DNA of 33,506 nucleotides from Xanthobacteraceae bacterium (lineage in GTDB: Bacteria; Pseudomonadota; Alphaproteobacteria; Rhizobiales; Xanthobacteraceae), in the NCBI GenBank assembly GCA_019745775.1, contig JAIESR010000048.1:1-33506 (forward strand). Reading direction: 5' to 3'. The position numbers were made by a program, and so were the translations under genes. Below, in pieces: positions 17,128 through 33,506 of the stretch (positions within the stretch are counted from its first letter, which is position 1; each line of letters opens with the position of its first letter). The notes beneath the pieces are model-generated. The model was given only the letters and a program-made list of their open reading frames with translations, had not been told where the DNA came from and did no database searches.

Positions 17128-18642
17128 TCAATGGGCGGACTGGACGCTTCCTTGCCTTAGATCAAGTTTCGTTCGCCGCTCGATCTTTGAGGTTTCGTAG
17201 TTCACCGTCGTCATCATGCCGGCGGCCATGTGGTAGAGATGGTGGCAGTGGAATGCCCACCGGCCGGGGTTCGCTGCGTCGAATGCGATCGTGACCGAAC
17301 GATGGGGCGGGAGATGAACAGTGTCGCGTACCGCGCCTGCGACACGTCTCCCGTCAATGGCAACCACTTGGAAATGATGGCCATGCAGGTGCATTGGATG
17401 CGCCATCATGCTGGTGTTTCGCATTGTCAGTTCAATGCGGTCGTCCTTACGCACCACAAGCTGTGGTTTGGTCACCAAATTCCAGCTATAGCCCTGCATT
17501 CCGCCCACGAGTTCCATGTCAAAGCGGCGGTCGGGGCGCCTCGTTGCAAGCGGCTTGACCGCGTGCAAGGCCTGCTCGATCGCGAGATCCAGCACAGGAC
17601 TCCTCGTTTGACCCTCGGCCGCGACTTTTTGAACGGCTGCCTTCGCTGGTGCCAGGATGATTCCTGTTCGCTCGAGAGCACCTTCACGCAGCGCAAGAAC
17701 GGGGAATGCCTCACTTGTACGCGGCAGTTCGACCACGATGTCGAGCCGTTGGCCCATTGAGATTGGGAATTGCCTCCCTCTTATCGGAACGACGGGTTGC
17801 CCATCCACTGCAATCAGCGTTCCTTCGAGCCTACCGAGATCAACTGTGAACGCGGTTGCCGTGGCACCGTTGATGATCCGGAGACGAACCCTTCCACCCA
17901 ACTCAACCCTGACAACCTCAGGATCATCGAGAGTACGATCATTGGTGAGATATGCGTCGTAATCGATGTCGTTGACGTCCATAGCGGCGGAGACCGGAGC
18001 CGAACTGCTCTTGCCCGGCGTGGCTTCATGGCCCATTGCCGAGTGATCAGCCGGTCCGGCGGTGCCGTGGTCCGGCCCTTTTTTGAGCCGTTCAAGAAGC
18101 TCCTCTGGGCTCGAAAACGAGAAGTCATGAAGCAGGATCACGACATCTTGCTTGTCTCGGCGGCGGTCATCTCGGTCAAACACGATCAGCGGCGCTGCCA
18201 GCAAATTCTGCTCCTGGAGCGTGTGCGCATGCATCCAGTGTGTCCCTGCAGCGCCCACAGGAAAGCTGAATTGGCGACTAATATTCGGACCAAGAGCCGG
18301 CGTCGGAGCATCGAGCACACCATCCTGATCCCAGGGTGGCGTCAGACCGTGCCAATGGACAATTGTCGGCTCCGATGACTCGTTGCGCAGGGTGACATCG
18401 AAGAGGTCGCCAGCCGTGAAGGACAGACCGGGCGATCCATTGGACTGAACAAGGCCGAAAACCTTCGCTGCGCGCTTCTTGACTTCGATCGTGCGATGCA
18501 CGACGCGTAGAACTTGATGTCCTGCCTTCCGTTCGCGACTAGGCGTTGCCTCCCGGCCAATCACCTGACGCGCGAAGGGTGATGGCAGGCCAAGTGCGGC
18601 AGCCGCAACCAGCGCTGTCCGCAAGAGTTCCCGTCGATCCAT
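17128..18642 (-). CDS. Multicopper oxidase, Tat-exported, copper resistance type
   Basis: A 504-aa multicopper oxidase. The N-terminus MDRRELLRTALVAAAALGLP is a Tat signal. Copper ligands appear in order: HWHGL (type 2/3), HWMHAH, HPMHLHGHHF and HCHHLYHMAAGM, which supplies the type 1 Cys, His and Met. Three cupredoxin domains fit the length. A His/Met-rich stretch (DHGTAGPADHSAMGHE, near residue 205) may be a substrate-copper site. It probably oxidises periplasmic Cu(I) or organic substrates and protects against copper. ATG 18642 is used; ATG 18654 is possible. The Met-rich protein and the DUF5676-like protein follow on the same strand. Confidence 0.92.
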   Translation of the reverse strand: MDRRELLRTALVAAAALGLPSPFARQVIGREATPSRERKAGHQVLRVVHRTIEVKKRAAKVFGLVQSNGSPGLSFTAGDLFDVTLRNESSEPTIVHWHGLTPPWDQDGVLDAPTPALGPNISRQFSFPVGAAGTHWMHAHTLQEQNLLAAPLIVFDRDDRRRDKQDVVILLHDFSFSSPEELLERLKKGPDHGTAGPADHSAMGHEATPGKSSSAPVSAAMDVNDIDYDAYLTNDRTLDDPEVVRVELGGRVRLRIINGATATAFTVDLGRLEGTLIAVDGQPVVPIRGRQFPISMGQRLDIVVELPRTSEAFPVLALREGALERTGIILAPAKAAVQKVAAEGQTRSPVLDLAIEQALHAVKPLATRRPDRRFDMELVGGMQGYSWNLVTKPQLVVRKDDRIELTMRNTSMMAHPMHLHGHHFQVVAIDGRRVAGAVRDTVHLPPHRSVTIAFDAANPGRWAFHCHHLYHMAAGMMTTVNYETSKIERRTKLDLRQGSVQSAH

Positions 18643-18814
18643 TGTTGACCTCATTCGTTCTCTTGAACGTACCCAGGCACGAGTTCGTGTTTCGTAGATG
18701 CCAGGACTCGCGGGACCGGTCCGGCTCACACTATGGGGGCTCATGGGCGCCCAGACTCTTCCCGCGAACCGCAGTCGACAAGCGTTGCTGACAGGTCGTC
18801 GACTACTGGCAGGC

Positions 18815-21973: not shown

Positions 21974-23290
21974 ATGGCTGATCAACGCCAGATTCTTACC
22001 GACAAGTGCATCGCGCGTTTGTCGTTCGCGGGAGAGAAGCAATACAAGGTCCGCGACAGCGAACTTCCGGGGTTCTTTGTGTTAGTCGGCAAGCGCCGAA
22101 AGAGCTTCATGGCTCAAGGGGAATTCTGGCGCGATGGTGCTCGCGAATTCACTGCACAGGTCAAGCTCGGAGACTTTGGAGATATCTCCACGCGCGAAGC
22201 TCGAGGCAAAGCTAAGCATGCCCTCGGATCAATCGCGCGAGGACGGCGGCCGGGCGAAGAGATAAAAATCAAACGCGGCTCAATCACACTGCGCCAAGCT
22301 TGGGAGCGCTACCGCGACGCTCACATGATCCGAAAGGGTCGGAGTGCAGGTACGATTGAGAACTACCGCGATCATATGGAGCGGCTGTTCGAGCACTGGC
22401 TCGACAAACCGCTTGCCCGCCTCGGTCGGCAGCCGAAGCTTGTCGCCGAGCGCCACGACCAAATCACCAAGGAGAATGGCGCTTATATCGCTAATGGCGC
22501 AATGCGGAGTCTTCGTGCGGTTTACAACCATGCGCGAAAAACGAACCGCGATCTGCCTCCCGAAAATCCCACGTTGGCGGTAGATTGGAATCAGGAAGAA
22601 CGGCGGAATAGCGGTATGGGAGCGGCTGACCTTCCCGCCTGGTTGGAAGAATTAAGGCTGTTGGAGAATCCCATCCGGCGTGAATTCCACTTGCTGACGC
22701 TGCTCAGTGGATCTCGACCGACAGCTCTAAAGAACGCGCGGATAGAGCGCGTCGACTTGCGCATGCGCGTGCTACACATTCCAAAGCCGAAAGGTGGGGA
22801 AGAGCGGGCTTTCGATGTTCCTCTGTCGCGTGCAATGATCCGGTGCATTATCCGCGCGATCCGCATCGGTCGGATGCTGTATCCGGATCAAGCAAACGAG
22901 TGGCTCTTCCCTGCCGACAGTGAATCCGGGCACCTGATTGAGCACAAAGAAGAGCGCGGAGTTCTTTACAAATGGGGGAACGATCTGCGGCAAAGTTACC
23001 GCACCATTGCGCAGTCGGTCGGTGTGTCCAAGCTCGATATTCATCTTCTGATGAACCACTCTTTGCCCGGCGTGAACGAGGGCTACATTACACGGGACAA
23101 GTTGCTCAATGATCTGCTTCGAAAGCAACAAGAGCGAATTTCGGCCGTCATTCTTAAGCAGGCGGCAAAGGCCAAGGAAGACCTAACAACACATTGGCTG
23201 AAGTCCAGTAGGATCGATTTGCCACTTAGCGACACAGGCGCCCAATCGCACGGAGAAAAGCCGGTCGGACCGCAAGAACTGGCGGCTTAA
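21974..23290 (+). CDS. Tyrosine recombinase (phage-type integrase)
   Basis: A 438-aa integrase. The N-terminal arm-binding DUF4102-like part has VRDSELPGFFVLVG and VKLGDFGDISTREARGKAK. A core-binding domain follows (about residues 105-205), and then the catalytic domain: Arg in LLSGSRPTALKNARIERVD, Lys in PKPKGGEERAFDVPL, the HxxR box as NDLRQSYRTIA, His in LLMNHS, and the nucleophile Tyr in VNEGYI. The box II His is replaced by Asn. ATG 21974 has GGGGAG upstream. It lies 170 bases inside the tRNA-Arg fragment and presumably catalysed integration there. Confidence 0.9.
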   Translation: MADQRQILTDKCIARLSFAGEKQYKVRDSELPGFFVLVGKRRKSFMAQGEFWRDGAREFTAQVKLGDFGDISTREARGKAKHALGSIARGRRPGEEIKIKRGSITLRQAWERYRDAHMIRKGRSAGTIENYRDHMERLFEHWLDKPLARLGRQPKLVAERHDQITKENGAYIANGAMRSLRAVYNHARKTNRDLPPENPTLAVDWNQEERRNSGMGAADLPAWLEELRLLENPIRREFHLLTLLSGSRPTALKNARIERVDLRMRVLHIPKPKGGEERAFDVPLSRAMIRCIIRAIRIGRMLYPDQANEWLFPADSESGHLIEHKEERGVLYKWGNDLRQSYRTIAQSVGVSKLDIHLLMNHSLPGVNEGYITRDKLLNDLLRKQQERISAVILKQAAKAKEDLTTHWLKSSRIDLPLSDTGAQSHGEKPVGPQELAA

Positions 23291-23468
23291 GATAAAGCTT
23301 GCTCTGACGCTTCGACTTCATCGGTATGGCCATTTCGACCTCCATCTCTCGAGCCAACAAGGGCAAGGTCGAGCCGCCGCCGCTCTATCCCCAACTACTA
23401 CGTCTGGAATTCCCGACTGTCACCCCCGCTCATTTCGAAAGGACGATCCCCAGGCCCTCCACAAGTTC

Positions 23469-23494
23469 GGCCCGCGCGGCGAACCGCGCGGGCC
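23469..23494. terminator. Strong hairpin with tetraloop
   Basis: A perfect 11-bp stem (GGCCCGCGCGG/CCGCGCGGGCC) with a CGAA loop (TTCG on the minus strand). It lies 18 bases beyond the stop of the minus-strand Asn-rich frame and 179 bases after the integrase, so it can end transcription of the former and perhaps of both. Confidence 0.6.
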
Positions 23495-23511
23495 GTCTTC
23501 CTTGGTCGCTA

Positions 23512-23855
23512 TTAGATGTCGTCAGCTGGGCCGCTGGTCAGGTTATCACCCGCGGCGGTGATGTCGATCTGGTTGAACTGGATGTTGGCGCCCATAACAA
23601 TGTTCTGCGTGAACGCCTCCTGGCTCGCCAGAGCATCGGTCTCGACCTTGTTGTCGACCTCGTTGTCGAGCTTGTTCCCGTTGGAATTCTCGTTTTTGTT
23701 CTCGTTCTTGTTGTCGTTGTCATTCGCGTTGTCATTCTTGTTTTCCGACAACGCGAACTGGAACTGCCCCTGGCCCTGGCCTGGGCTTGACCCTGCAACT
23801 GCGCCTGAAGCTGCGCCTGCAGCTCAGCCCAGCGGATCAACAAACAGGACAACGT
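23512..23855 (-). pseudogene. Asn/Gln-rich low-complexity protein, frameshifted fragment
   Basis: The intact C-terminal frame (23512-23751) encodes 79 residues: an Asn/Asp/Lys/Glu run (NDNANDNDNKNENKNENSN) and then TQNIVMGANIQFNQIDITAAG. Upstream, in another frame, lies a Gln-rich run (LQAQLQAQLQGQAQ). One missing C in a GCCCAGG context near 23775 separates them: restoring it would join QGQAQ to QGQFQFALSENKN. From memory, Bradyrhizobium genomes carry long Gln/Asn-rich proteins with the same C-terminal sequence; this would be the tail of one. The 5' end is lost where an acetyltransferase fragment begins. Confidence 0.5.
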
Positions 23856-23861
23856 CAACAA

Positions 23862-24120
23862 TTGCATCTACCGTATGCAGAACTGCCCAATGATTGGAAT
23901 CGTTATCTTGAGGGCATCAGCACAAATACCCGGCAGAAGATCAGGCGCTTCCTGCGTCAAGTCGAGAGCTCGGAAGAGTTTCGTGTCACGTGCGCCGACC
24001 GGGATACGGTCGACCGCGACATCAAGATGCTTCTACGGTTTTGGGCGATCAAATGGGCGCCCCGAAAGGGCGATCGAACCGAAGGCATCGTCCGAACAAG
24101 CTACGCGACATTGATGCGGC
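23862..24120 (+). pseudogene. FemAB/CelD-like acetyltransferase fragment
   Basis: About 85 codons read LPNDWNRYLEGISTNTRQKI, RRFLRQVESSEEF and a following helix with DIKMLLRFWAIKWAPRKG. This resembles the central part of GNAT proteins of the Acetyltransf_6 (CelD/BioF2-like) type. Both ends are missing: it begins inside the Gln-rich remnant and stops at about 24120, where a reverse transcriptase fragment on the other strand begins. It is not expected to be functional. Confidence 0.55.
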
Positions 24121-24313
24121 TTTCGCGGGTTAGCAGCGAGAAACGATAGTTCCCAGACAGGAGTTCGGCCTTGATCTGCTCCTTCTCGCGTGGCCAGCAG
24201 CGGCGTAACGCTCACACGTCCGAGTTTGCCGAATAATCCCGTCGCCGCCGACATAGCCATTCGTAGGCCGTGTCCAGCACGTCGTCGGAGGTGATTTGGG
24301 TGAGGATCGACAT
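24118..24313 (-). pseudogene. Reverse transcriptase N-terminal fragment
   Basis: From ATG 24313 the frame reads MSILTQITSDDVLDTAYEWL, CRRRRDYSANSDV, a TGA at 24214-24212 where Trp is expected, then ALRRCWPREKEQIKAELLSG and NYRFSLLTR. The pattern (W-x-LR-x2-W-x2-EK followed by LLxGxYxFxxL) resembles the N-terminal part of a group of bacterial reverse transcriptases. The polymerase domain is absent. The stop codon and the abrupt end at about 24118 mark a dead fragment. Confidence 0.5.
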
Positions 24314-24423
24314 ACCAAGAGGCCCGGGCGTGATCAAAAATGAGCTGACGACATCAAATGTGACGCAACGTGATGATGAAAAATTGGAGACACTTACCGC
24401 CCCAATCCCCGTCCCCTATTCGT

Positions 24424-25647
24424 TCAGAAAATCGGATGCAGTGGTGCAGCTGACGAGGCTCCCTGCGTTTGATGTGCAACCCACCGAGTGCTCAGGTCCG
24501 GCGGGAGCCGGTCGATAAGGTCCAGCACCACATCCACTGAGCGCATCAAGCTTCGGCAATGAACCGTTTCAGTCGAGGCTGCCGAGCCGTTCTCGAAAAT
24601 CTTGTTCGCCGGCGCTCCTCCGCCGCAAACCCCGTAATAGGCGCACGTGGAAGCACATTGCTGCAAGCCTGCGCCTATATCCGCGTAAAGGCTGCTCTCC
24701 ATCACGCGAGCCGCGATCTGTTCAAATTCGAGATCACGCAAATTCCCGAAGCAGAAGTCATACCGCTCATGCTTGAGGCCCAGGAGCTCGGGTGAGAATG
24801 TCGAGACATTTCCGTCAGAGTCGACGGAGATGATACGAAAGGGCTCAGCTTGTTCATTTCGAATTTCGGCGCCATGACCCTGGATCGCCCGCATGGAGCT
24901 TTCGACCTCGCGTACAAGAACGGGTTGTTGACGTTGAAAGCTGAGGTCGAGAAAGCGCTCCAAGAAGGAGCGATAGCGCGCGTCCGCTGCGGCGCTGTTC
25001 ACAAATCTCGACCTGCTATTTAGCCCCTCCTGCTCCTCGATGTTGAAACAGATGTATTCGATGGCATTGTCGACGTAGAAGTCGAGCATCTGCTCAAGCT
25101 TCGCCATGCTTTCGACGGTCAGGACCGAAATCACGTGGAATGGAATGCCCGCGCGCTGCAGCCGCCGAAGGCCCTCATGGGTTAGGTTGAACGACCCGGC
25201 GCCGTTCCTCTGTTTGCGGTGTAGGTCGTGTAACTCGGCGGGCCCATCTATACTGACGCCGATGTTGATGTTCCATTTCTGAATTAGCTCGCACCAAGCG
25301 TCGGAAATCAGGGTGCCGTTTGTCTGAAACGAATGGCGCACGTGCAAGCCAGGCGGCGACAAATCTTTGATCAGTTGAAACATCTGCTCATAATATTTAA
25401 CCGGGAGAACCAGCGGTTCTCCCGCGTGCCACACGACCGTTACTAGCTCGCGGACCGTGGGGAAGCGCAATAGCTTCCTGAAAATCACTTGGGCCAGTTC
25501 AAACGAGAGGCGCTTCTTGGACGATCGATCGGGGAGATAACAATAGGAGCAATCAATGTTGCAGAATGGTGTGGGCTGGACAACCAGGAGGCTGGTTTGG
25601 CTAAACGGCATATCACCGACACCCGAGCGCTTGAGTGGCGGGCTCAT
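24424..25647 (-). CDS. Radical SAM/SPASM peptide maturase, GrrM/OscB type
   Basis: A protein of about 407 aa. The radical SAM cluster site CNIDCSYC has Cys near residues 29, 33 and 36, followed by WHAGEPLVLP and SFQTNGTLISDAWCELI. The C-terminal SPASM domain has CASTCAYYGVCGGGAPANK and a last Cys in VHCRSL, which bind auxiliary Fe-S clusters. The opening LLVVQPTPFCNIDCSYCYLP is typical of GrrM/OscB enzymes, which form C-C links between an aromatic ring and the side chain two residues on in secreted precursor peptides. ATG 25647 is used; ATG 25611 is possible. The precursor gene ends 33 bases upstream, so the two form an operon. Identification as GrrM is by motif and partner. Confidence 0.85.
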   Translation of the reverse strand: MSPPLKRSGVGDMPFSQTSLLVVQPTPFCNIDCSYCYLPDRSSKKRLSFELAQVIFRKLLRFPTVRELVTVVWHAGEPLVLPVKYYEQMFQLIKDLSPPGLHVRHSFQTNGTLISDAWCELIQKWNINIGVSIDGPAELHDLHRKQRNGAGSFNLTHEGLRRLQRAGIPFHVISVLTVESMAKLEQMLDFYVDNAIEYICFNIEEQEGLNSRSRFVNSAAADARYRSFLERFLDLSFQRQQPVLVREVESSMRAIQGHGAEIRNEQAEPFRIISVDSDGNVSTFSPELLGLKHERYDFCFGNLRDLEFEQIAARVMESSLYADIGAGLQQCASTCAYYGVCGGGAPANKIFENGSAASTETVHCRSLMRSVDVVLDLIDRLPPDLSTRWVAHQTQGASSAAPLHPIF

Positions 25648-25680
25648 TTTACAGCTCAACCCCGGTTGTCCTGCCGGGTC

Positions 25681-25950
25681 TTAACGGTGGTGATGATTAT
25701 GCCAGTTATGCCAGTTATGCCAATTGTTCCAGTTATGCCAGTGTTGTGCGACACGGTCTTGTTCGCTCGATCCACTATCGGACGTTGTTGATCCGGTTGG
25801 CGCGGCAAGCTTCGCAATTTCGTCGAGCTTGGCCTGTGCGCCCGCAATCCTTTGGTCAAGCGAAATGCTGTTAGAGTTCGTCGTCGTAGCGGAGGCTGCA
25901 CCCGATGTTACAATGAGTGCAGCTAGAATTCCGAAAACCTTACCAAACAT
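25681..25950 (-). CDS. Cyclophane RiPP precursor, GrrA-like, with W-X-N repeats
   Basis: An 89-aa peptide. Residues 1-21 form a signal peptide (MFGKVFGILAALIVTSGAASA). A leader helix ISLDQRIAGAQAKLDEIAKL (residues 29-48) resembles the conserved segment of GrrA precursors. A Ser/Thr linker follows. The core, residues 71-85, is five contiguous triplets WHN, WNN, WHN, WHN, WHN, ending in HHHR. Aromatic-X-Asn is the triplet cross-linked by three-residue cyclophane-forming radical SAM enzymes. The core is encoded by 9-bp tandem repeats. ATG 25950 has GGGAGGG about ten bases upstream. Unlike typical GrrA it has His rather than Gly in the middle position, and the motifs have no spacers. Confidence 0.82.
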   Translation of the reverse strand: MFGKVFGILAALIVTSGAASATTTNSNSISLDQRIAGAQAKLDEIAKLAAPTGSTTSDSGSSEQDRVAQHWHNWNNWHNWHNWHNHHHR

Positions 25951-26039
25951 GATGATCAGCCCTCCCAGGTGCGACATAGGTTGCAACTTCTATCTTCTAT
26001 GCCGCATAATTACATGTCAAGGTCGATAGCTTTTAAAAT

Positions 26040-26300
26040 GGTAATCTGCACTGCCTGGTCCTTGGGCTATTGGAAGCCACGCACACGATGGCGGGGCACT
26101 CCGATTGGTCGGGTGGTCAGCGTGTTCGACAGAGAACGGGTGCAACGCGCTCTCTATCCCGTCCACAATCATGCGCGCCATCACATCCCTGCGCAATTCG
26201 AATCGGATCAGCTTCCTTCGCGGCAACGAGCGCGTCGTACAATCGCTTCTGCTTGTCGAGCGTGGCGGTTTCGATCACATCGACCAGCGTGAGCACTAAG
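26040..26300 (-). pseudogene. Unrecognised small gene, apparently frameshifted
   Basis: One minus-strand frame gives LDALVLTLVDVIETATLDKQ and KRLYDALVAAKEADPIRI, a regular amphipathic helix pattern. About ten codons later a second frame continues plausibly with LRRDVMARMIVDGIESAL. A shift near 26200 would join them. There is no start with a good ribosome site; the left half runs into a tRNA-like scar. I do not recognise the family. It may be a small phage- or island-type protein that has decayed, or the pattern may be chance. Confidence 0.3.
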
Positions 26301-26313
26301 GCGTCGAGTTCAG

Positions 26314-26337
26314 CGGAAGGGGTGGGATTCGAACCCG
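26314..26337 (-). other. 3' end of a tRNA (Ser-like): possible second attachment scar
   Basis: On the minus strand GGGTTCGAATCCCACCCC followed by TTCCG matches the T-loop, the 3' T-stem, the acceptor 3' strand CCCTTCC and discriminator G expected of a tRNA-Ser. Sequence 5' of this block cannot form the T-stem, and CCA is not kept. So it is a scar of about 23 bases, not a gene. Confidence 0.45.
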
Positions 26338-26383
26338 AATTTGAATGCCGGACGAGACGGCGGCGCACTGATATCAAAATCAT

Positions 26384-26817
26384 GCATTCGCTAGAATTGT
26401 TCAGACAGTCTCAGTGCTCCACCGAATCTCCGCGCATCGAAAATTGGACATCGAAAAATCAACATCAGAGACCGGTGCCGAGAACTGCGAGCCAACTAGC
26501 CCACACCGCGCGATTGCTCCCATAGAGACGCTGCCATTTGCGCGCTATCCCGCGGAATAGTCGCGACCACAACCTAGAGCCGCAAAAGCCAGAAATGGCG
26601 GCACTGGTGGGCTGTGGTGCCAGCGCGGTGCGAACCGGTCTCTAGCAGCAATCCCCGATATCACTGAACATACAGGCCAGCGCGTCCAGTACGAATGCTA
26701 GCTGTCGATAACAGACGCGTGCCGCGGCGGAAATTCGGCCAACGGGGGAGGATCATTTGGATCCAACGTCGCGTAGCTATCGCAACCGCCTCCAGCCTGT
26801 AACTACGATCTTCACAA
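26384..26817. other. Gene-free stretch in the island
   Basis: About 430 bases without a convincing reading frame, RNA gene or repeat. Stops are frequent in all frames on both strands. It lies between the tRNA-like scar and the end of the minus-strand periplasmic gene and looks like degraded sequence. Confidence 0.5.
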
Positions 26818-27198
26818 TTAGTCGCGAGGTGCGTGGAAACTCACCCGCGTGGTCTTTCCGTCCGAGGCGGTCAGATGGATTGCGATCCTGCCCTCGGGCG
26901 GCAGCAACAGCGGTGATTTACCCGACCAGCTGCCGCTCTGCTGCCGCTCCAATAGGATGTGTTGTTCCTTGCCGTCCACATCCAATGTCGCGTGCGCCTT
27001 GAAGGCAACCGTCGAGACCGGCCTGCCCTTGAGGTCTGTGAGATAAACTGTCAGGGCGTCGTCTTTGACGACCAGTTCGACACTGTATGCATCGGTCTTG
27101 ACCAGACGGCCGCCATTGGAGGTCCGCAGTACCTCATGCGCTGCTGAGGGAACTCCGATGATAAGGCATGAGATCAGTACTGCGATTCGGAGCTTCAT
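26818..27198 (-). CDS. Small periplasmic protein, possibly metal-efflux associated
   Basis: A 126-aa protein with a signal peptide (MKLRIAVLISCLIIGVPSAA-HE). The rest reads NGGRLVKTDAYSVELVVKDD, VYLTDLKGRPVSTVAFKAHA, VDGKEQHILLE and later a TTRVSF strand, which suggests a small beta-sandwich. Proteins with a GGRLV...HVEL pattern are often encoded beside cation-efflux genes; the function is not established. ATG 27198 has AGGGGGG seven bases before it. It stands alone here but is akin in plan to the 31150-31545 protein. Confidence 0.7.
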   Translation of the reverse strand: MKLRIAVLISCLIIGVPSAAHEVLRTSNGGRLVKTDAYSVELVVKDDALTVYLTDLKGRPVSTVAFKAHATLDVDGKEQHILLERQQSGSWSGKSPLLLPPEGRIAIHLTASDGKTTRVSFHAPRD

Positions 27199-27745
27199 GG
27201 AGAGGCCCCCCTAATGCGTATTTGGTTCTAGTATTACATGGCCAAGCACCAGACGAAAGCGGGGAATCTGCAGGGTCACTAGCTGCTCTGGGTCGCACCG
27301 TCGGGCTCGGCGATACGATGTGCATCACCACGGCAGAGGCGCCGAGATCACGAAGTTTCGAGACGATGTCTGCGATCGTCGAGCGCGCAACTGTCCCCAT
27401 CCGGGGCGAGCGATTCGTCGCGGATATCGAGTTCCGGACGGGTTTATCCTGGTTAGGGGCGTAGAGTGACAACGACCGGTGTCTTGGAGGTCCCGACCAG
27501 TGCCGCGGCAACTGGTTTGCGCGATTCTTTGGCGGAAAATTGATTGAACGCCGCGAGCCGTAACACGCCCCTCACACTCCTGTAATTTGCGTTGTTTGGG
27601 CGACCCACGCACCAGCGCGTTGCTGATTGGGCCTTTGCCGTCAATTTTAGTTCTTGCTGGCCATCTGTAAATTCTACCGACAATTTCTACCGTTCCTAGG
27701 ATGGTTAGATGCTCACAGCCGTTCTGCGGTCGGATTCGTCAATCT
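27199..27745. other. Intergenic stretch with weak open frames
   Basis: About 550 bases. A minus-strand frame 27453-27683 (76 codons, VEFTDGQQELKLTAKAQSAT and so on) and a short minus-strand patch TIADIVSKLRDLGASAVVMH near 27350 have protein-like composition, but I see no good starts, ribosome sites or family motifs. They may be remnants of one broken gene. Nothing else is evident. Confidence 0.35.
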
Positions 27746-27761
27746 TGTGATGGCTATCACA
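27746..27761. promoter_or_regulatory. Crp-type box upstream of His/Pro-rich gene
   Basis: TGTGATGGCTATCACA fits TGTGA-N6-TCACA with an imperfect centre. It lies 82 bases upstream of the 27843 start on the same strand and is similar in half-sites to the palindrome at 10532. Confidence 0.55.
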
Positions 27762-27842
27762 GTCGCGATCCGTGTCTTAAGCGACAACTAGGCACGGCTT
27801 CGGGGATGAGCCCCGGACGGATCAAATCAAGGAACCACGAAA

Positions 27843-28322
27843 ATGTTGAAGCGCACTGCGCTCTTCGCCTTCGCCGCAGCGGTTGTTGTCGGCTTGGCGT
27901 CTCTCACCACGGGGGCTGAAGCCCGCGGTCACGGTGGCGGCCACGGTGGCGGCCACGGCGGCGGTCATCATGGCGGCGGTCACCACCGTCCCCACGGCCA
28001 TCACGGCCATCACGGTCACCACGGTCACCATCGGGCGCACTACCGGTACTACCGGTACCCGACCTACTCCTACCCGACGTATCCGGTGTATCAGCCTCCC
28101 GCTCCGGCGTACCAGGCTCCGGCTCCCGTGTACCAAGCTCCGGCTCCCGTGTACCAGGCTCCGGCTCCGGTCTACTCTTGCCCGCCTCCGACGCCGGCGA
28201 GCTATGAGCAGCCCGCCCCGGCATATGCGCCGCCTCCGGCTCCTGCGGCGTATGCTCCTGCGGCGCCTCCGGCTCACGGCCATCACGGGCAACCTGGCCA
28301 TCATGGAAACCATAGCCATTAA
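27843..28322 (+). CDS. Secreted His/Gly/Pro-rich repeat protein
   Basis: A 159-aa protein with a signal peptide (residues 1-28, ending TTGAEA). The mature part opens with HGGG repeats and PHGHHGHHGHHGHH (about residues 29-63), followed by a Tyr-rich strip YRYYRYPTYSYPTYPVY and then four copies of a heptad near YQAPAPV, one Cys, a Pro/Ala region and a His-rich end GHHGQPGHHGNHSH. The His clusters could bind Ni, Zn or Cu; the Pro/Tyr part suggests an extended cell-surface chain. ATG 27843 has AAGGAACC upstream. A Crp-type box precedes the gene and a terminator follows it. Function unknown. Confidence 0.8.
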   Translation: MLKRTALFAFAAAVVVGLASLTTGAEARGHGGGHGGGHGGGHHGGGHHRPHGHHGHHGHHGHHRAHYRYYRYPTYSYPTYPVYQPPAPAYQAPAPVYQAPAPVYQAPAPVYSCPPPTPASYEQPAPAYAPPPAPAAYAPAAPPAHGHHGQPGHHGNHSH

Positions 28323-28343
28323 GAACGCGTGGATGGCAGTACT

Positions 28344-28375
28344 AGAACCCCGGCCAGTCCGGGGTTCTATATTTC
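28344..28375 (+). terminator. Intrinsic terminator after His/Pro-rich gene
   Basis: A perfect 10-bp stem AGAACCCCGG/CCGGGGTTCT with loop CCAGT at 28344-28368, followed by ATATTTC. It lies 21 bases beyond the stop codon of the His/Pro-rich gene, so that gene is a single transcription unit. Confidence 0.75.
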
Positions 28376-28502
28376 ATTGCACCCACCCGTGCCGGTCGGC
28401 TTGGCGCGCCGCAATTGGATTTAATCACCGAAGTCTGACGGGATACGAAGATGGCGCATACGGTGGAGCACTAGACAACATTGCTGCTCAGGCGTTGGTC
28501 GC

Positions 28503-28691
28503 GACAACTTGGGGCGTCTCCGGCTGACGTTTTGTGGTGTCGGCACGATCGTCGGCGCAGGCATTTATTCAGTTATAGGCGCCGGCGCAGGGGAACTTGT
28601 GGATCAGTTTGGTCCGGCAGGCATCGCGGCTGGGTTTCAGCTCTGTCGTACTCAGAGGCTCGCATCAACTTTCCCTAGAGCGGGTCCGTAA
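28503..28691 (+). pseudogene. APC-family amino acid permease fragment
   Basis: The frame reads LGRLRLTFCGVGTIVGAGIY, SVIGAGAGELVDQFGPAGIA and, after a shift to another frame, VSALSYSEA, then LASTFPRAG in the first frame again. This is the first helix pair of APC-superfamily (basic amino acid type) permeases: GVGTIVGAGIYSVIGAAAGE then ALSYAELASxFPRAG. Only about 60 codons remain, with frameshifts and internal loss. It is dead. Confidence 0.6.
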
Positions 28692-29112
28692 TATCCCGAG
28701 GAAATCGAACTGTCACGACTGCCTCCAGAGGGCCATCCCCATCTTCTCGGAGGGAATCGGGTGGACGGCGGATACCGTCATCGCTATGCGTTCCTGATCG
28801 AGATGATCACCCGAATGGCCTCGTCCGGTCTAACGCTTCACCTGGACCGCCATCACCCCTCTAATTAACTGCGTAGAATTCTTAATCCAGTTCCTTAACT
28901 ACTTATCCATAGCAAGATTTAGAATGTCGAAAGCATCTGACCGCATACTGTACATTCTCAGCAGCGGTATAGCGCGTGCCCTTTCTTAGGCGATGTTCCC
29001 CAGCCCCTATCATACTCGAGGAGCGTAAAGTTGTCGCGGATGGCCCGCCGTAGCTCGCCTTCAGCGCAGTTTCGAGAGACGGGCACGACCAGCAGTTGGA
29101 GCAGCTGCTGTA
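28692..29112. other. AT-richer stretch with weak minus-strand frame
   Basis: About 420 bases. A minus-strand frame at 28958-29185 (EVDVRMWVIQQLLQLLVVPV) is the only protein-like part and continues from the frame of the next feature only if a shift is allowed. The rest, notably 28860-28960, is AT-rich without genes or RNAs that I recognise. Confidence 0.35.
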
Positions 29113-29568
29113 TCACCCACATGCGGACGTCGACTTCGGGATCAGGTGCTCCGACAGGTCGGAAGTTTCTGCTTTTCGACCACATAGGGACGGCGCCAGC
29201 AAGCGCGAGGCTTGGGATAGATGAGCGGGACGATGTTCTCTCTCCGAAGGCCCAACTTCCTCAACCGTGCGCAGCCACGCACGACTCATGGCTTCGTTAA
29301 ATAGAAATTTGTGGATGAACCGATCAAGAACCGCGCCCACCCAAGGCACGGCGACGCCGATGGTCAGCGTGGACAATACTGGGTGCCGCCATTTAGGGGA
29401 CGTGAACTCGTGATTGAGGCATGTGAGCTCGATCCCCAGCCGGTAGCCGACGAGTGCAACGCCGCTGGCATCCAGTCGCGTGACGATGTCCACGACGTCG
29501 ACATAGAAATCGGGATTTCGCCCGAACGCGCGATATGAAATTTTCTTCGAGGCCCGAGGCCACGGCAC
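29113..29568 (-). pseudogene. Unrecognised gene, probably frameshifted
   Basis: A 151-codon minus-strand frame begins at GTG 29568. Its first hundred residues look protein-like (PDFYVDVVDIVTRLDASGVA, LVGYRLGIELTCLNHEFTSP, STLTIGVAVPWVGAVLDRFI), while the last 40 do not. A neighbouring frame supplies a better start region (MIPGAVASGLEENFISRVRA at about 29580-29520), and another supplies a better end near 29185-28958. This suggests one gene of about 200 codons broken by two shifts. I do not recognise the family and no membrane or catalytic motif is clear. Confidence 0.35.
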
Positions 29569-29790
29569 CAGGGATCATGAGCACGCTGCTCTCTGAAAGA
29601 GCGCCATTGATCGAATGTTGATCATCCAAACGGCTGGATTTGAAAAGGCATCCAATCCTGCAATGAATGGCAGATGAACGGCATTGGCGAATATTTGGCC
29701 GGTGGCCGGGTTCACCAATAAGGAATAACCTGATACATTCGCGTTGGTCTGTCTCGCAAAGCAGCCCAGCCCCCCGAGGAGAACTCCAAA

Positions 29791-30123
29791 ATGCCTAAAG
29801 TCCTGATGGCCGCTGTCACCGCCACGGTCGCCCTGATTGCTACATACCTAGTGCCATCAACTGCCAATGCAGCAGCTGGGGCGCCATCGTCTATGCTGCC
29901 TGCTATCGCTGATTCAAATCTAGTCGGCAATGTCCAACACCATCACCGTCACCGACGCCACCACCATCACCGGCGCGCCCACCATCATCACCGGCCCGCC
30001 CATCACCACCATCGGCCCGCTCACCACCACCATCGGCCCGCCCACCACCACCATCGGCCCGCTCACCACCACCATCGGCCCGCTCACCACCACCATCGGC
30101 CCGCCCACCACCACCATCATTGA
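29791..30123 (+). CDS. Secreted His-rich heptad-repeat protein
   Basis: A 110-aa protein. Residues 1-27 form a signal peptide (ending TANAAA). After a 20-residue linker the remainder is almost pure His/Arg/Pro/Ala: HHHRHRR, one HHHHRRA, six copies of HHHHRPA and a final HHHHH. The heptads are encoded by 21-bp tandem repeats at about 29970-30120. ATG 29791 has GAGGAGAA upstream. A hairpin follows the gene. The His density suggests Ni/Zn/Cu binding in the periplasm or outside the cell; the Arg could bind polyanions. No family is recognised. The repeat number is likely to vary between strains. Confidence 0.75.
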   Translation: MPKVLMAAVTATVALIATYLVPSTANAAAGAPSSMLPAIADSNLVGNVQHHHRHRRHHHHRRAHHHHRPAHHHHRPAHHHHRPAHHHHRPAHHHHRPAHHHHRPAHHHHH

Positions 30124-30144
30124 TCCAAGCGAAACTGTGAAACC

Positions 30145-30188
30145 GACGGCGGGTTTGGATCCGCCGTCTCCACAGCCATTTCGGCTGT
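30145..30188. terminator. Hairpins after His heptad gene
   Basis: GACGGCGG/CCGCCGTC with an 8-base loop (30145-30168) is followed by a second small hairpin ACAGCC/GGCTGT (about 30172-30188). They lie 22 bases after the stop; there is no clear T run. Confidence 0.5.
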
Positions 30189-30620
30189 ACTGACATTGAA
30201 GAGATTGTTCGGATTGCGGGCGGCCGAGCAGTTCGAACTCAAATTTTTTGGCGCGAACCTTACCAAGCGGCGCGCTACTCTGCCGGAGAATCGCAAAAGA
30301 CTGCCCTAAAGGGTTGAGCGACGACTCCGGATAACATCAGGGAGTGGAAATAGCATCGCGATAGTCGAGACTGGCTTATATACACCGATCGGATCGTCAA
30401 AAATCATGAATCGAGTGGTTCAGCCCCTGAGGCTATCTCCTTGGTCGGCTTCTTACGAACACCACCGTTATTCCGGCGACAAGAGGGATTCAGTTTTCGC
30501 TATCTAATTGCTGGATCAGCACGCGGACAGAGGGTCGAACCGGCCATGTCACATCCTCCCCACCTCTGGTCTGCGCACGCCGCCCCGTGTGCATTTGCGA
30601 GTGATCTGTCAGACAAAAGG
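30189..30620. other. Gene-free stretch
   Basis: About 430 bases with no convincing coding frame or known RNA. A short T-run (ATTTTTTGG) is present near 30245. It separates the plus-strand His heptad gene from the minus-strand gene ending at 30621. Confidence 0.5.
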
Positions 30621-31109
30621 CTAACGGTGGTCGGGACGTTCCAGCTTCGGTAACGCTCTTATCTTATCCAAGTTCGTCGCCCAAAACTTCAATTCTGCAT
30701 TAAGCGCCCGTTGGCCCTGTTCATTTGAGATTTGCTGATAGTCGGTACCCTTCGAGCGGACATATATCGCGATCAATTCTGCGCGCGGGGAAACGATAAG
30801 GAATTCGCCTATCAGGGGATTGAGATGAAATAAGAGGACATAAGGAATTTGTTTTGTCGAAACCACCGGGACATTGGCGCCATGAGGATAGGCCTTACCA
30901 GAATCATCCTCGACTGAAATCTGCTTAAAAATGCACTCTGGACTTAGATGGCCCACACCTAGCTTCATACATACCGGCCCGAGTCTTGCGCGCCAACCGG
31001 TATCTTGTACGAACTCAATAAGTGCCGAAAGCGATGCCTCGGCACTCATTTTTTCCGAAGTCGCTGGTCCAGCCGGGAGCAAGCTCGCCACACCTACAAC
31101 TGCGGCCAT
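30621..31109 (-). CDS. Hypothetical exported protein
   Basis: A 162-aa protein, family not recognised. The N-terminus MAAVVGVASLLPAGPATSEK may be a short signal peptide. The mature part has two Cys (RLGPVCMKLGV, SPECIFKQI) that could form a disulfide, and a beta-rich centre (KQIPYVLLFHLNPLIGEFLI, RAELIAIYVRSKG). ATG 31109 is the only start before a stop codon upstream, though no ribosome site is obvious. It lies 40 bases after the 31150-31545 gene on the same strand and may share its transcript. Confidence 0.55.
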   Translation of the reverse strand: MAAVVGVASLLPAGPATSEKMSAEASLSALIEFVQDTGWRARLGPVCMKLGVGHLSPECIFKQISVEDDSGKAYPHGANVPVVSTKQIPYVLLFHLNPLIGEFLIVSPRAELIAIYVRSKGTDYQQISNEQGQRALNAELKFWATNLDKIRALPKLERPDHR

Positions 31110-31149
31110 AGCTGTAGAGACGGCACGACTGCGAAAGCTTCGGTCGTGA

Positions 31150-31545
31150 TTACATCAGACCATGCGCTTCGCTCCTAGGGCCGGAATCGGGACCGGACTT
31201 CCCCGCGGCCGTCCGTAGTGCAACTGCTATCGTCACGCCTTTCAGCGCGGACTTGGCCTCACCGCGCAGGACGTTGGTATCGGCGGGTTCGAGCTTGACG
31301 GTTTCGCGATCTTTGCCACGCGTGACCAGCGCTGAACCGGAAAAACCCTTGGTCGGGATCGGTTTGACGGCCTCATCGTAAATATTGATCGTAATGGTGT
31401 TGCCGGACGCAATTAATTCAGGATGAAGACCAGCAACGTCTTCCATTGGTCCGCCTTTTGGTCCCTTTTCGCCGTGACCATGTTGTTCCGCGAGAGCAGC
31501 CGTCCCAACGATGAGGGCGGCCATTAAGGCAAGTGCATATTTCAT
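31150..31545 (-). CDS. Periplasmic His-containing protein, metal-efflux associated type
   Basis: A 131-aa protein with a signal peptide (MKYALALMAALIVGTAALA-EQ). The mature N-terminus EQHGHGEKGPKGGPMEDVAG is followed by HPELIASGNTITINIYDEAV, KPIPTKGFSGSALVTRGKDR and a beta-rich end. The HG-rich start followed by GGPM...V...HPEL is a pattern seen in small periplasmic proteins near heavy-metal exporters; the biochemical role is not known. ATG 31545 has AAGGAGAA upstream. An IS3 remnant lies just upstream and the metal ATPase gene follows on the other strand. Confidence 0.7.
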   Translation of the reverse strand: MKYALALMAALIVGTAALAEQHGHGEKGPKGGPMEDVAGLHPELIASGNTITINIYDEAVKPIPTKGFSGSALVTRGKDRETVKLEPADTNVLRGEAKSALKGVTIAVALRTAAGKSGPDSGPRSEAHGLM

Positions 31546-31699
31546 TGCTGTTCTCCTTGGTCTGAGAGGACTGGAAGCGAAGAAGGCTCTTCGGCCGCGC
31601 TAGGTTCCTCTCGTTCATCACGCCGGAAAAGCACGTAGTCAAGTGGTCGCGGTTGTCTGAACAGATTTTCCGCGTCGGTAAGTGCAGCCTCTGCCGGAG

Positions 31700-32340
31700 T
31701 TAGGCTACCGCGCGGACGGGCAGCGGGTTCAAGTAGGCTTGATCGGGCGTCGTGTCGCCAAGGCTCGAATGCGGCTGGCGGCGATTGTAGAAGTCGATAT
31801 ATCGGCGGATCGAACTGCGGGTCTCGCTGACGCTGTCGTACGCCTTGAGATACACCTCCGCGTATTTGACGCGGCGCCACAGCCGCTCGACGAAGACGTT
31901 GTCGCGCCAGCGCCCTTGCCGTTCATGCTGATCGCGATGCCGTTGTCGGCGCGTACGCCGGTGAAGGCCGCGCCGGTGAACTGCCAGCCCTGGTCCATGT
32001 GAAGATCGCGGGGCTTGCGGTTCTTCGTCAGCGCCTCCTCCAGCACGTTAACGTAGAATGCCGCATCCATCGTGATCGACACTCGCCACGACAGCACATG
32101 ACGGCTGAACCAGTCGAGCACCACCGCCAGCTAGATGAACCCACGCGCCATCGCGATGTAGGTAATGTTCATCGTCCGCAGCTAGTTCGGCCGCGTGATC
32201 TCGATGCCGCGCAGCACATACAGATAGATCTTATGCCCTGGCTCGGGCTTGGTCGTGCACGGGCGGCGATCGAGCGCGTCTATTCCACCGCCGCAGCAAC
32301 GTATTCACGTGCCGACGGCCGACCTTGCACCCTTCGGGCC
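31700..32340 (-). pseudogene. IS3-family transposase OrfB, degraded
   Basis: Reading leftward from about 32340: KVGRRHVNTLLRRW, IYLYVLRGIEITRPN, a TAG (32184-32182), LRTMNITYIAMARGFI, a second TAG (32133-32131), LAVVLDWFSRHVLSWRVSIT, DQGWQFTGAAFTGV, ISMNGKGA, then a one-base loss and RDNVFVERLWRRVKYAEVYL and FYNRRQPHSSLGDTTPDQAY. This is the integrase core of IS3-family OrfB. The first catalytic Asp is Asn (MNITYI for MDITYI). Two stops, a frameshift and the loss of the first third make it inactive. OrfA is not seen here. Confidence 0.85.
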
Positions 32341-32790
32341 GACAAAAGACCGCGCAACATCCGCGATCCCGCGAATGGGAACTCTGGATGCAGCCGCTTA
32401 CAGCTAGAACACGTGCGAAGGAGGGTAAGTTCCCTCTCGCTGTATGTCCTGGGATCGCTGCCAACAAGTCAATTTGTCTCCATCATGCAGGCTCAACCTG
32501 GAAGTTCAGCGCAAGGCGCTGGTCGCTCAAAGCGTTCCGGTTGATTTGCGGATTCCGGCGCATCAGTAGCCATTTTCACAACGAAGAACCGAACGCCGAG
32601 CCCTCAATCCAACTTTTCATCGAAAGCGCCCGCGAGATCGCCAAGCCTCTGGCGAAGATAGCGACCGAAAGAGGCGGTGCCACTTTCGCTAGTGGCGCTG
32701 GGCGCCGATCCCTGAAATGATTGATCTGTCCGCAACGGCATAGAGAGGTTAAATGATGCTCACACCGTTGCCTGCCAGGAAGTGTCGACC
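32341..32790. other. Stretch between IS remnant and metal ATPase
   Basis: About 450 bases without a clear gene. The last 60 bases upstream of the ATPase hold a spaced inverted repeat GCAACGG/CCGTTGC (about 32731-32772) that may bracket the promoter. No MerR- or ArsR-type regulator gene is present in this window. Confidence 0.4.
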
Positions 32791-33506
32791 ATGCCAACGA
32801 AAGACACTGAACGACTTCAGCTAGACTTGCCCGTTCTGCTTCCGGACACCCCCGATGAAGCCGATGCTTGCGTCGCCCGGCTGATAACCGATCTAGCTGC
32901 CCGGGAGGGCATGGCACGCGTTCATGTCGAGCCCGGTTCCGGCGGGAAGCCGTGCAAGCTCTGCATCCACTACGATCCCGAAATCCTGAGTCTCGCCCGG
33001 GTGCGGGAGATCGCCCAGCGCGCCGGCGCCCGTCTCACGGAACGCTTCGGCCATATCCTGTGGGATGCCGACGGGCTTCGGCATCAACGGCGGGCACGCA
33101 CCGTAGCCGCGCGGATGAAGCTGATGCCAGGCGTGGTCGAGGCGGAGGTGTCGGCGGCCGGACTGCTGCGGCTCGAGTTCGACCGGGATGTGGTGTCTGA
33201 GCGGGATCTGCTTCGCGCCTTGGGCCACATGGGCGTGATACTGCGCGGGCAGACCGTACGCGAGGCGGTGCGGGCGGAGGAACGGAAAGCACACGGCCAT
33301 GAACATTCCCACGGAGACCACGAGCACGCGCGTGCAGCTGAGCACGGAACGGGGTCAGAGCGCCAGGACGAGGCCCGCGCTCACGACCATCCGCACGGCG
33401 GTGTGTTCGGCGAGAATACCGAGCTCTATTTCGCCCTGATCTGTGGCGCACTGCTCGCCATCGGCTACTTCATCTCGCTTGCGACCAATGCACCCGCGTG
33501 GCTGCC
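32791..33506 (+). CDS. Heavy-metal-translocating P-type ATPase, N-terminal part
   Basis: An open frame of at least 238 codons running off the window. The cytoplasmic N-terminus has two ferredoxin-like metal-domain-shaped parts: the first with KPCKLCIHYDPEILSLARVR and the second with MKLMPGVVEAEVSAAGLLRL. A His-rich linker of about 35 residues (HGHEHSHGDHEHA and HDHPHGG) follows, and then the first membrane segment LYFALICGALLAIGYFISLA. This layout fits P1B-type Zn/Cd/Co or Cu exporters. The CPx motif and catalytic DKTG lie beyond the window, so metal choice is open; CKLC in place of CxxC-with-Met and the His linker lean towards Zn/Cd/Co/Ni. ATG 32791 has AGGAAG upstream. Confidence 0.8.
   Translation, partial: MPTKDTERLQLDLPVLLPDTPDEADACVARLITDLAAREGMARVHVEPGSGGKPCKLCIHYDPEILSLARVREIAQRAGARLTERFGHILWDADGLRHQRRARTVAARMKLMPGVVEAEVSAAGLLRLEFDRDVVSERDLLRALGHMGVILRGQTVREAVRAEERKAHGHEHSHGDHEHARAAEHGTGSERQDEARAHDHPHGGVFGENTELYFALICGALLAIGYFISLATNAPAWL

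Follow-up and report, generated by a model that had tools for sequence, protein, structure and literature searches.

The window analyzed here, a stretch of 33,506 nucleotides from the genome of a Xanthobacteraceae bacterium, contains two adjoining minus-strand genes for a peptide precursor and a radical SAM/SPASM maturase of the GrrM/OscB family. The precursor gene (25681..25950) encodes 89 residues from an ATG start, with the sequence GGGAGGG lying 12 bases 5′ of the ATG, and has a weak match to TIGR04260. The maturase gene (24424..25659) encodes 411 residues from a TTG at 25659 to the stop at 24424, and an alternative ATG start exists at 25647. The initial annotation had the precursor lying just upstream of the enzyme with a gap of 33 bases. 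The order and shared strand agree with the open reading frames, and the gap of 33 bases is obtained from the ATG at 25647, whereas the listed TTG start leaves 21 bases.

Residues 1-21 of the precursor (25888..25950, minus strand) form a signal-peptide-like N-terminus that ends in SGAASA and has a hydropathy of 2.26 over 14 residues. The stretch SLDQRIAGAQAKLDEIAKL (25807..25863, minus strand) is kept in the related loci L122, L123, L126, and L124 and is weaker in L007; this leader stretch is likely the recognition element for the enzyme. Alignment with relatives also reveals a VAQHW junction in the precursor. The core, HWHNWNNWHNWHNWHNHHHR (25684..25743, minus strand), consists of five contiguous W-x-N triplets and their flanking residues. 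The last 19 residues as first reported, WHNWNNWHNWHNWHNHHHR, match the ORF exactly, and the C-terminal end of the translation reads HWHN-WNN-WHN-WHN-WHN-HHHR.

Membership of the enzyme in the GrrM/OscB family, claimed at the outset, is confirmed by a score of 406.5 bits against the TIGR04261 cut-off of 310, and a radical SAM domain (PF04055, 3.2e-20) is present. The CX3CX2C cluster motif CNIDCSYC (25540..25563, minus strand) supplies C33, C37, and C40, which occur in 62 of 62 enzymes compared, while the SPASM-region cysteines C335, C339, C345, and C368 (24556..24657, minus strand) are found in 61-62 of the 62. At every column with at least 90% conservation in this alignment, the window enzyme keeps the consensus residue, cluster cysteines included. 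The anaerobic sulfatase maturases, which had been named as a competing SPASM family, do not claim the enzyme, since it scores 157.8 bits against their cut-off of 349.45 and lies above that of TIGR04261. AmcB was likewise rejected (295.6 bits, cut-off 425), as were DynA, YhhB, FxsB, and XyeB, the enzyme falling under the cut-off of each profile. The best-scoring solved chains by sequence are the anaerobic sulfatase maturases 4k37 and 4k36 and ChlB (9gm3), the last of which is termed a "multiple cyclophane synthase" in the title of a 2025 paper in the reference list of PMC12636437. The genome has a single TIGR04261 match at E ≤ 0.001. The system is sparse, given that 22 of 391 genomes in a sample of the family lie above the TIGR04261 cut-off and that a protein search with the window enzyme found 3 of 397 genomes of the order at E ≤ 1e-60, its own genome counted.

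Scored against the GrrA/OscA profile TIGR04260, as the initial annotation had suggested, the precursor reaches 18.7 bits and thus falls under the cut-off of 31. Among the precursors of ten relatives, L011 (43.5) and L020 (40.9) pass, L124 (21.3) lies below the cut-off, and seven have no match to this profile at all. The GrrA/OscA1 precursor is, as the family name states, a Gly-rich repeat protein. The window core contains zero Gly, so the precursor departs from this Gly-rich definition. Aromatic-x-x3 motifs do adjoin a 3-CyFE gene, as expected for a triceptide. The pair resembles the GrrM/OscB system typified by OscB in belonging to the sequence family above its curated cut-off, in its W-x-N motifs, and in its two genes with the precursor upstream, as far as the OscB system is set out in the part of PMC11002830 consulted. 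It differs in that its precursor lies below the GrrA/OscA1 cut-off, is His-rich, and is without Gly-rich spacers.

All five triplets fit the aromatic-X-Asn register claimed for them, and the register recurs in relatives. The run is more than chance: when the 20-residue core was shuffled 200,000 times, five triplets in a row arose in no shuffle and four or more in 10. At the DNA level, the array corresponds to 5.1 copies of a 9-base unit in tandem (25697-25742), and in-frame expansion therefore probably contributed to it. The W-x-N register is kept in relatives of differing core length, AAC and AAT are both used as Asn codons, and a 10-residue in-frame core deletion between L082 and L083, whose enzymes are 96% identical, retains the register. 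Together these features argue for selection on W-x-N atop a repeat that expands and contracts in frame. An alternative in which only one or a few triplets are cross-linked, the others being spacer or by-products of slippage, would draw on the same tandem repeat and deletion and on a related rhizobial class with a single terminal WRN. This alternative is a genuine minority possibility, set against the retention of W and N in every triplet, the synonymous variation of the Asn codons, and the spread of comparable runs over several enzyme branches.

That spread emerged from a wider comparison. A contig scan gave 73 loci and a family survey added others; from 98 loci with an enzyme match, 9 were removed as >97% duplicates, and 43 with a motif score of at least 4 and at least 205 bits provided 41 distinct cores for counting. 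Where the enzyme match reaches 215 bits or more, 50 of 60 loci carry two or more motifs in an ORF upstream; of the remaining ten, five have a single terminal WRN and the other five are without a convincing upstream ORF. By a simple threshold, 34 of the 41 distinct precursors have a hydrophobic N-terminus, and 9 show a loose twin-arginine pattern. Cores are alike within enzyme branches, as judged by eye. The 41 cores hold 223 aromatic-x-Asn motifs as compared to 76.9 (sd 6.5) in within-core shuffles, an excess that is partly circular because the ORFs were chosen by a score rewarding aromatic-x-Asn. After an aromatic residue, Asn makes up 71% of residues at +2, 18% at +1, and 4% at +3 in these cores.

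Three features that the initial annotation had singled out are ordinary in this sample. Runs of at least three [WFY]-x-[NQKD] triplets occur in 23 of the 41 distinct cores and runs of at least five in 12 of the 41, so contiguity is not special; His in the middle position is found in L011, L012, and L020 as well; and Gly, supposedly the usual middle residue, accounts for 12% of middle positions, beside R (19%), N (18%), P (16%), and H (9%). The array layout is one of several in the GrrM/OscB family, and neither the tandem layout nor the middle His is unique. By the [WFY]-x-[NQKD] count, the spacer-free tandem arrays beside GrrM-type enzymes contain as many as eleven candidate triplets (L026, including nine FPN), with runs of ten in L088 and nine in L029 and L032. 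The third residues of these arrays go beyond Asn to Gln and Lys, and such arrays open the number of rings, processivity, and the choice of third residue to direct test.

Eight other contiguous-array precursors (L026, L088, L129, L029, L032, L034, L074, and L077) share with the window the back-to-back aromatic-x-polar triplets beside a GrrM gene, and 5 of the 8 have a hydrophobic N-terminus. They differ in having Phe-x-Asn/Gln or Trp-x-Asn/Lys units without His and in belonging to other enzyme branches. When eight spacer-free array precursors were scored, none passed the GrrA cut-off, and profile searches therefore miss them. A codon-pattern search for three W-x-N triplets matched 11 of 385 genomes of the class. 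Among the 15 places listed from it, three are the window locus and L111 is the only other run-bearing ORF beside a GrrM-like match; the matches L110, L112, L115, L116, L118, and L119 have no run-bearing ORF beside a GrrM-like match. Precursors with Aro-Xaa-Asn or Aro-Xaa-Xaa-Asn motifs are similar in that repeated aromatic/Asn motifs lie by radical SAM genes and are predicted to form cyclophanes, but they are associated with other enzyme clusters and, in the case described in the consulted part of the source, carry two Aro-Xaa-Xaa-Asn repeats (PMC9062424). Contiguous W-x-N arrays are not mentioned in the titles and abstract openings of the literature searched, a body from which subscription journals are mostly absent.

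The pair is quite probably a minimal two-gene GrrM/OscB (triceptide) RiPP cassette, whose product would be an exported multi-cyclophane peptide. In the proposed scheme, a Sec-type signal peptide is followed in the precursor by a leader stretch and, at the C-terminus, the W-x-N array, and the enzyme would act in the cytoplasm, joining the Trp ring to the Cβ of the Asn at +2. Such a cross-link would form in most, if not all, of the triplets, with one ring for each 9-base unit, and the peptide would be exported after modification. Modification should precede export because the enzyme needs iron-sulfur clusters. As described in the portion of PMC11002830 consulted, OscB links Trp through C7 to the Cβ of either Asn or Asp, and Phe through C4 to the Asn Cβ; by this precedent, the likely product here has one ring per triplet. 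The peptide is most likely exported. Sec signal peptides are described as rare among bacterial RiPPs in the section of PMC12452194 consulted. The tryptic peptide VAQHWHNWNNWHNWHNWHNHHHR has a calculated mass of 3183.4012 Da unmodified and 3173.3229 Da with five cross-links.

In a tree of 62 enzymes, comprising those with at least 215 bits and more than 250 residues plus two from Micromonosporaceae, and built by a quick method with SH-aLRT support only and a midpoint root, the window enzyme belongs to a clade of six members (96% SH-aLRT). The enzymes of L083 and L082 are 72-75% identical to the window enzyme, that of L006 (locus L087) 64%, L086 55%, and L007 50%. Their cores are HWPNWNNWHNHHWGNHHH in L083, HWHNWPNWNNWHDHWNNWHNHHWGNHHH in L082, HWNNHRWNNHWNNWHNWGNHRNPHH in L006, WSNYYRPWHNWRNWNNWRNYRGGYGY in L086, and WHQFPWNQWDQWHQWQQWQQWQQWHQHFR in L007. 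His makes up 28-40% of the core in the window, L083, L082, and L006, 14% in L007, and 4% in L086. The L007 core has Gln instead of Asn at every W triplet of its array. This W-x-Q array resembles that of the window in its clade, its HW start, its His near the end, and its exported-like precursor, but differs in the Gln at each third position and in a twin-arginine-like N-terminus. Gln is not among the cross-link residues named in the parts of the literature consulted. The unusual point of the locus is this small His-rich clade together with its Gln-type member, rather than the tandem layout or the middle His. Gln also replaces Asn in L035 and L043/L078 and alternates with it in L029/L032; third-position Gln in these several GrrM branches (for L007, at L007:562-882) marks a possible Trp-Gln or Phe-Gln cross-link.

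Beyond the pair, the locus comparison found no neighboring gene common to the clade loci, and hence nothing that would link a protease or an exporter to the pair. The mature form may thus be the whole exported protein. A product acting as an antibacterial or signaling triceptide, with histidines that help only solubility or target binding, would be in keeping with darobactin, a radical-SAM-made side-chain cross-linked RiPP that is antibacterial according to the text consulted of PMC9055067, and the patchy occurrence of the locus in the family, beside an integrase-like gene, would suit a mobile weapon. This use is possible but on the unlikely side, as no immunity, protease, or transporter gene beside the pair is common to the clade loci and the neighbors are partly metal genes.

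The surroundings of the pair bear on this point. From 16 kb onward, GC content is 53-60%, down from 62-69%, except in the kilobase at 20-21 kb. This low-GC stretch holds the integrase-like gene, the pair, two small exported-like ORFs, and a His-rich exported-like ORF. The initial annotation had placed the pair in an island that also carries metal genes; metal-related genes do lie in the same low-GC region, among them a multicopper oxidase (17128-18744), but one belongs to a duplicated piece of an operon, and two clade loci are without a transition-metal gene among the ORFs scanned. The duplicated piece, of CusA/CzcA type (30582..31637), matches contig C64 of the same genome (G000:C64) at 90% DNA identity across 1061 bp, and the C64 copy stands where a CusA-like gene ends; this metal gene of the window therefore sits on duplicated DNA. 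This duplication borders an IS3-like stretch. On it lies a small exported-like ORF (31150-31545, minus strand) whose homologues directly follow RND permease genes in two plasmid regions, both permeases being annotated as the CusA/CzcA heavy-metal type. Another small protein with an export-like N-terminus (26818..27198, minus strand) has homologues in two further plasmid regions, in each case immediately behind an RND permease gene. Among the clade loci, L007 has as neighbors a P-type ATPase piece, a four-helix copper-binding-like ORF, and a ZIP-like transporter whose match (2.6e-6) falls under the Pfam cut-off, and L124 adjoins an Nramp gene. No transition-metal gene was found in the 9 neighboring ORFs scanned at L123, where potassium (Kdp) and MgtC genes are present, or in the 7 scanned at L126. 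The metal context of the pair is therefore suggestive only.

A His-rich exported-like ORF with HHHHRPA repeats (29791..30123, plus strand) has Pfam matches below cut-off only. A second exported-like His-rich ORF in the window (27843-28322, plus strand) fails the His-rich filter used below, and another lies near the pair in L122 (L122:9509-9811, minus strand); none of the three has a Pfam match over the cut-off. His-rich exported-like ORFs within 5 kb were found at 2 of 6 clade loci (the window and L122) as compared to 0 of 69 other GrrM loci, a post hoc contrast (Fisher p 0.005) whose filter (His at least 18%, hydropathy 1.5) was fixed after both positives were known and whose 69 control loci have flanks of unequal length, many ended by contig ends. 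A baseline sample of 711 kb, drawn from four genomes of the family and largely made up of the initial 20 kb of selected contigs, contained none. Such ORFs without an adjacent maturase gene, at 29791-30123 and in L122, would be in line with an enzyme that acts elsewhere and a Trp/His-rich exported protein that binds metal unmodified. The close pairing and common leader throughout the clade, and the regular presence of a motif-bearing ORF upstream of GrrM genes at large, make this very improbable.

For the cross-linked peptide, a metal-binding role is plausible, and the His-rich clade provides a concrete candidate for a triceptide that handles metal. With low confidence, its use may be that of a periplasmic or outer-surface metal-ion ligand acting through closely spaced histidines. 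The fuller proposal of an exported poly-cyclophane metallopeptide, in which contiguous Trp-Asn rings would hold the histidines in place along a stiff backbone to serve as a metal ligand and L007 would have the same layout with Trp-Gln rings, is doubtful and offered tentatively. Such a metallopeptide would be a radical-SAM counterpart of the bufferins, RiPPs that also have a Sec signal peptide and that chelate copper; bufferins differ in being products of MNIO enzymes, which act mainly on Cys and with a partner protein, as the consulted part of PMC12452194 describes them, and no sequence relation is claimed. No MNIO-type domain is among the Pfam matches of 38 window ORFs at the limits used, and the comparison with bufferins is one of analogy. 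A biological role of GrrM products was not found in the literature searched, whose coverage leaves out most subscription journals.

The tyrosine integrase-like gene beside the pair (21974..23290, plus strand; PF13356 2.4e-9, PF00589 6.1e-4, the latter below its cut-off) shares 73% identity over 415 residues with an L122 ORF that lies some 6 kb away from the pair of that locus. Between integrase and pair, a GNAT acetyltransferase-like fragment (23787-24149, plus strand) matches PF13480 below cut-off (6e-4), and a low-complexity Asn/Asp/Lys/Glu ORF (23512-23751, minus strand) opposite another ORF may be no gene. Among the 15 of 112 records listed, plasmid DNA matches to 21974-33506 cover the IS3-like stretch only. 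No tRNA or Rfam elements were found in the window; a promoter scan gave 4 hits versus a shuffle mean of 1.4, and a terminator scan 3 versus 2.2.

Several other GrrM groups have arrangements of their own. In the rhizobial loci L002, L022, L024, L027, L028, and L030, a single motif stands at the extreme C-terminus (AQWRN plus at most one residue). The precursors of L094-L098, L016, and L019, from named Bradyrhizobium or the family sample, have Cys beside the motifs, such as FNCFSGVWRRC. The Gly/Trp-rich loci L008 (6221-6982), L011 (6112-6909), L012 (5954-6865), and L013 (5948-6958) share a related third gene after the enzyme; it is absent from the window's clade in the same comparison, and the L011 copy has no Pfam match. 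In Micromonospora loci (L049, L051, L056, and others), the enzyme comes first, and the likely precursor, with KFDNRPTWDN-type motifs, is found downstream.
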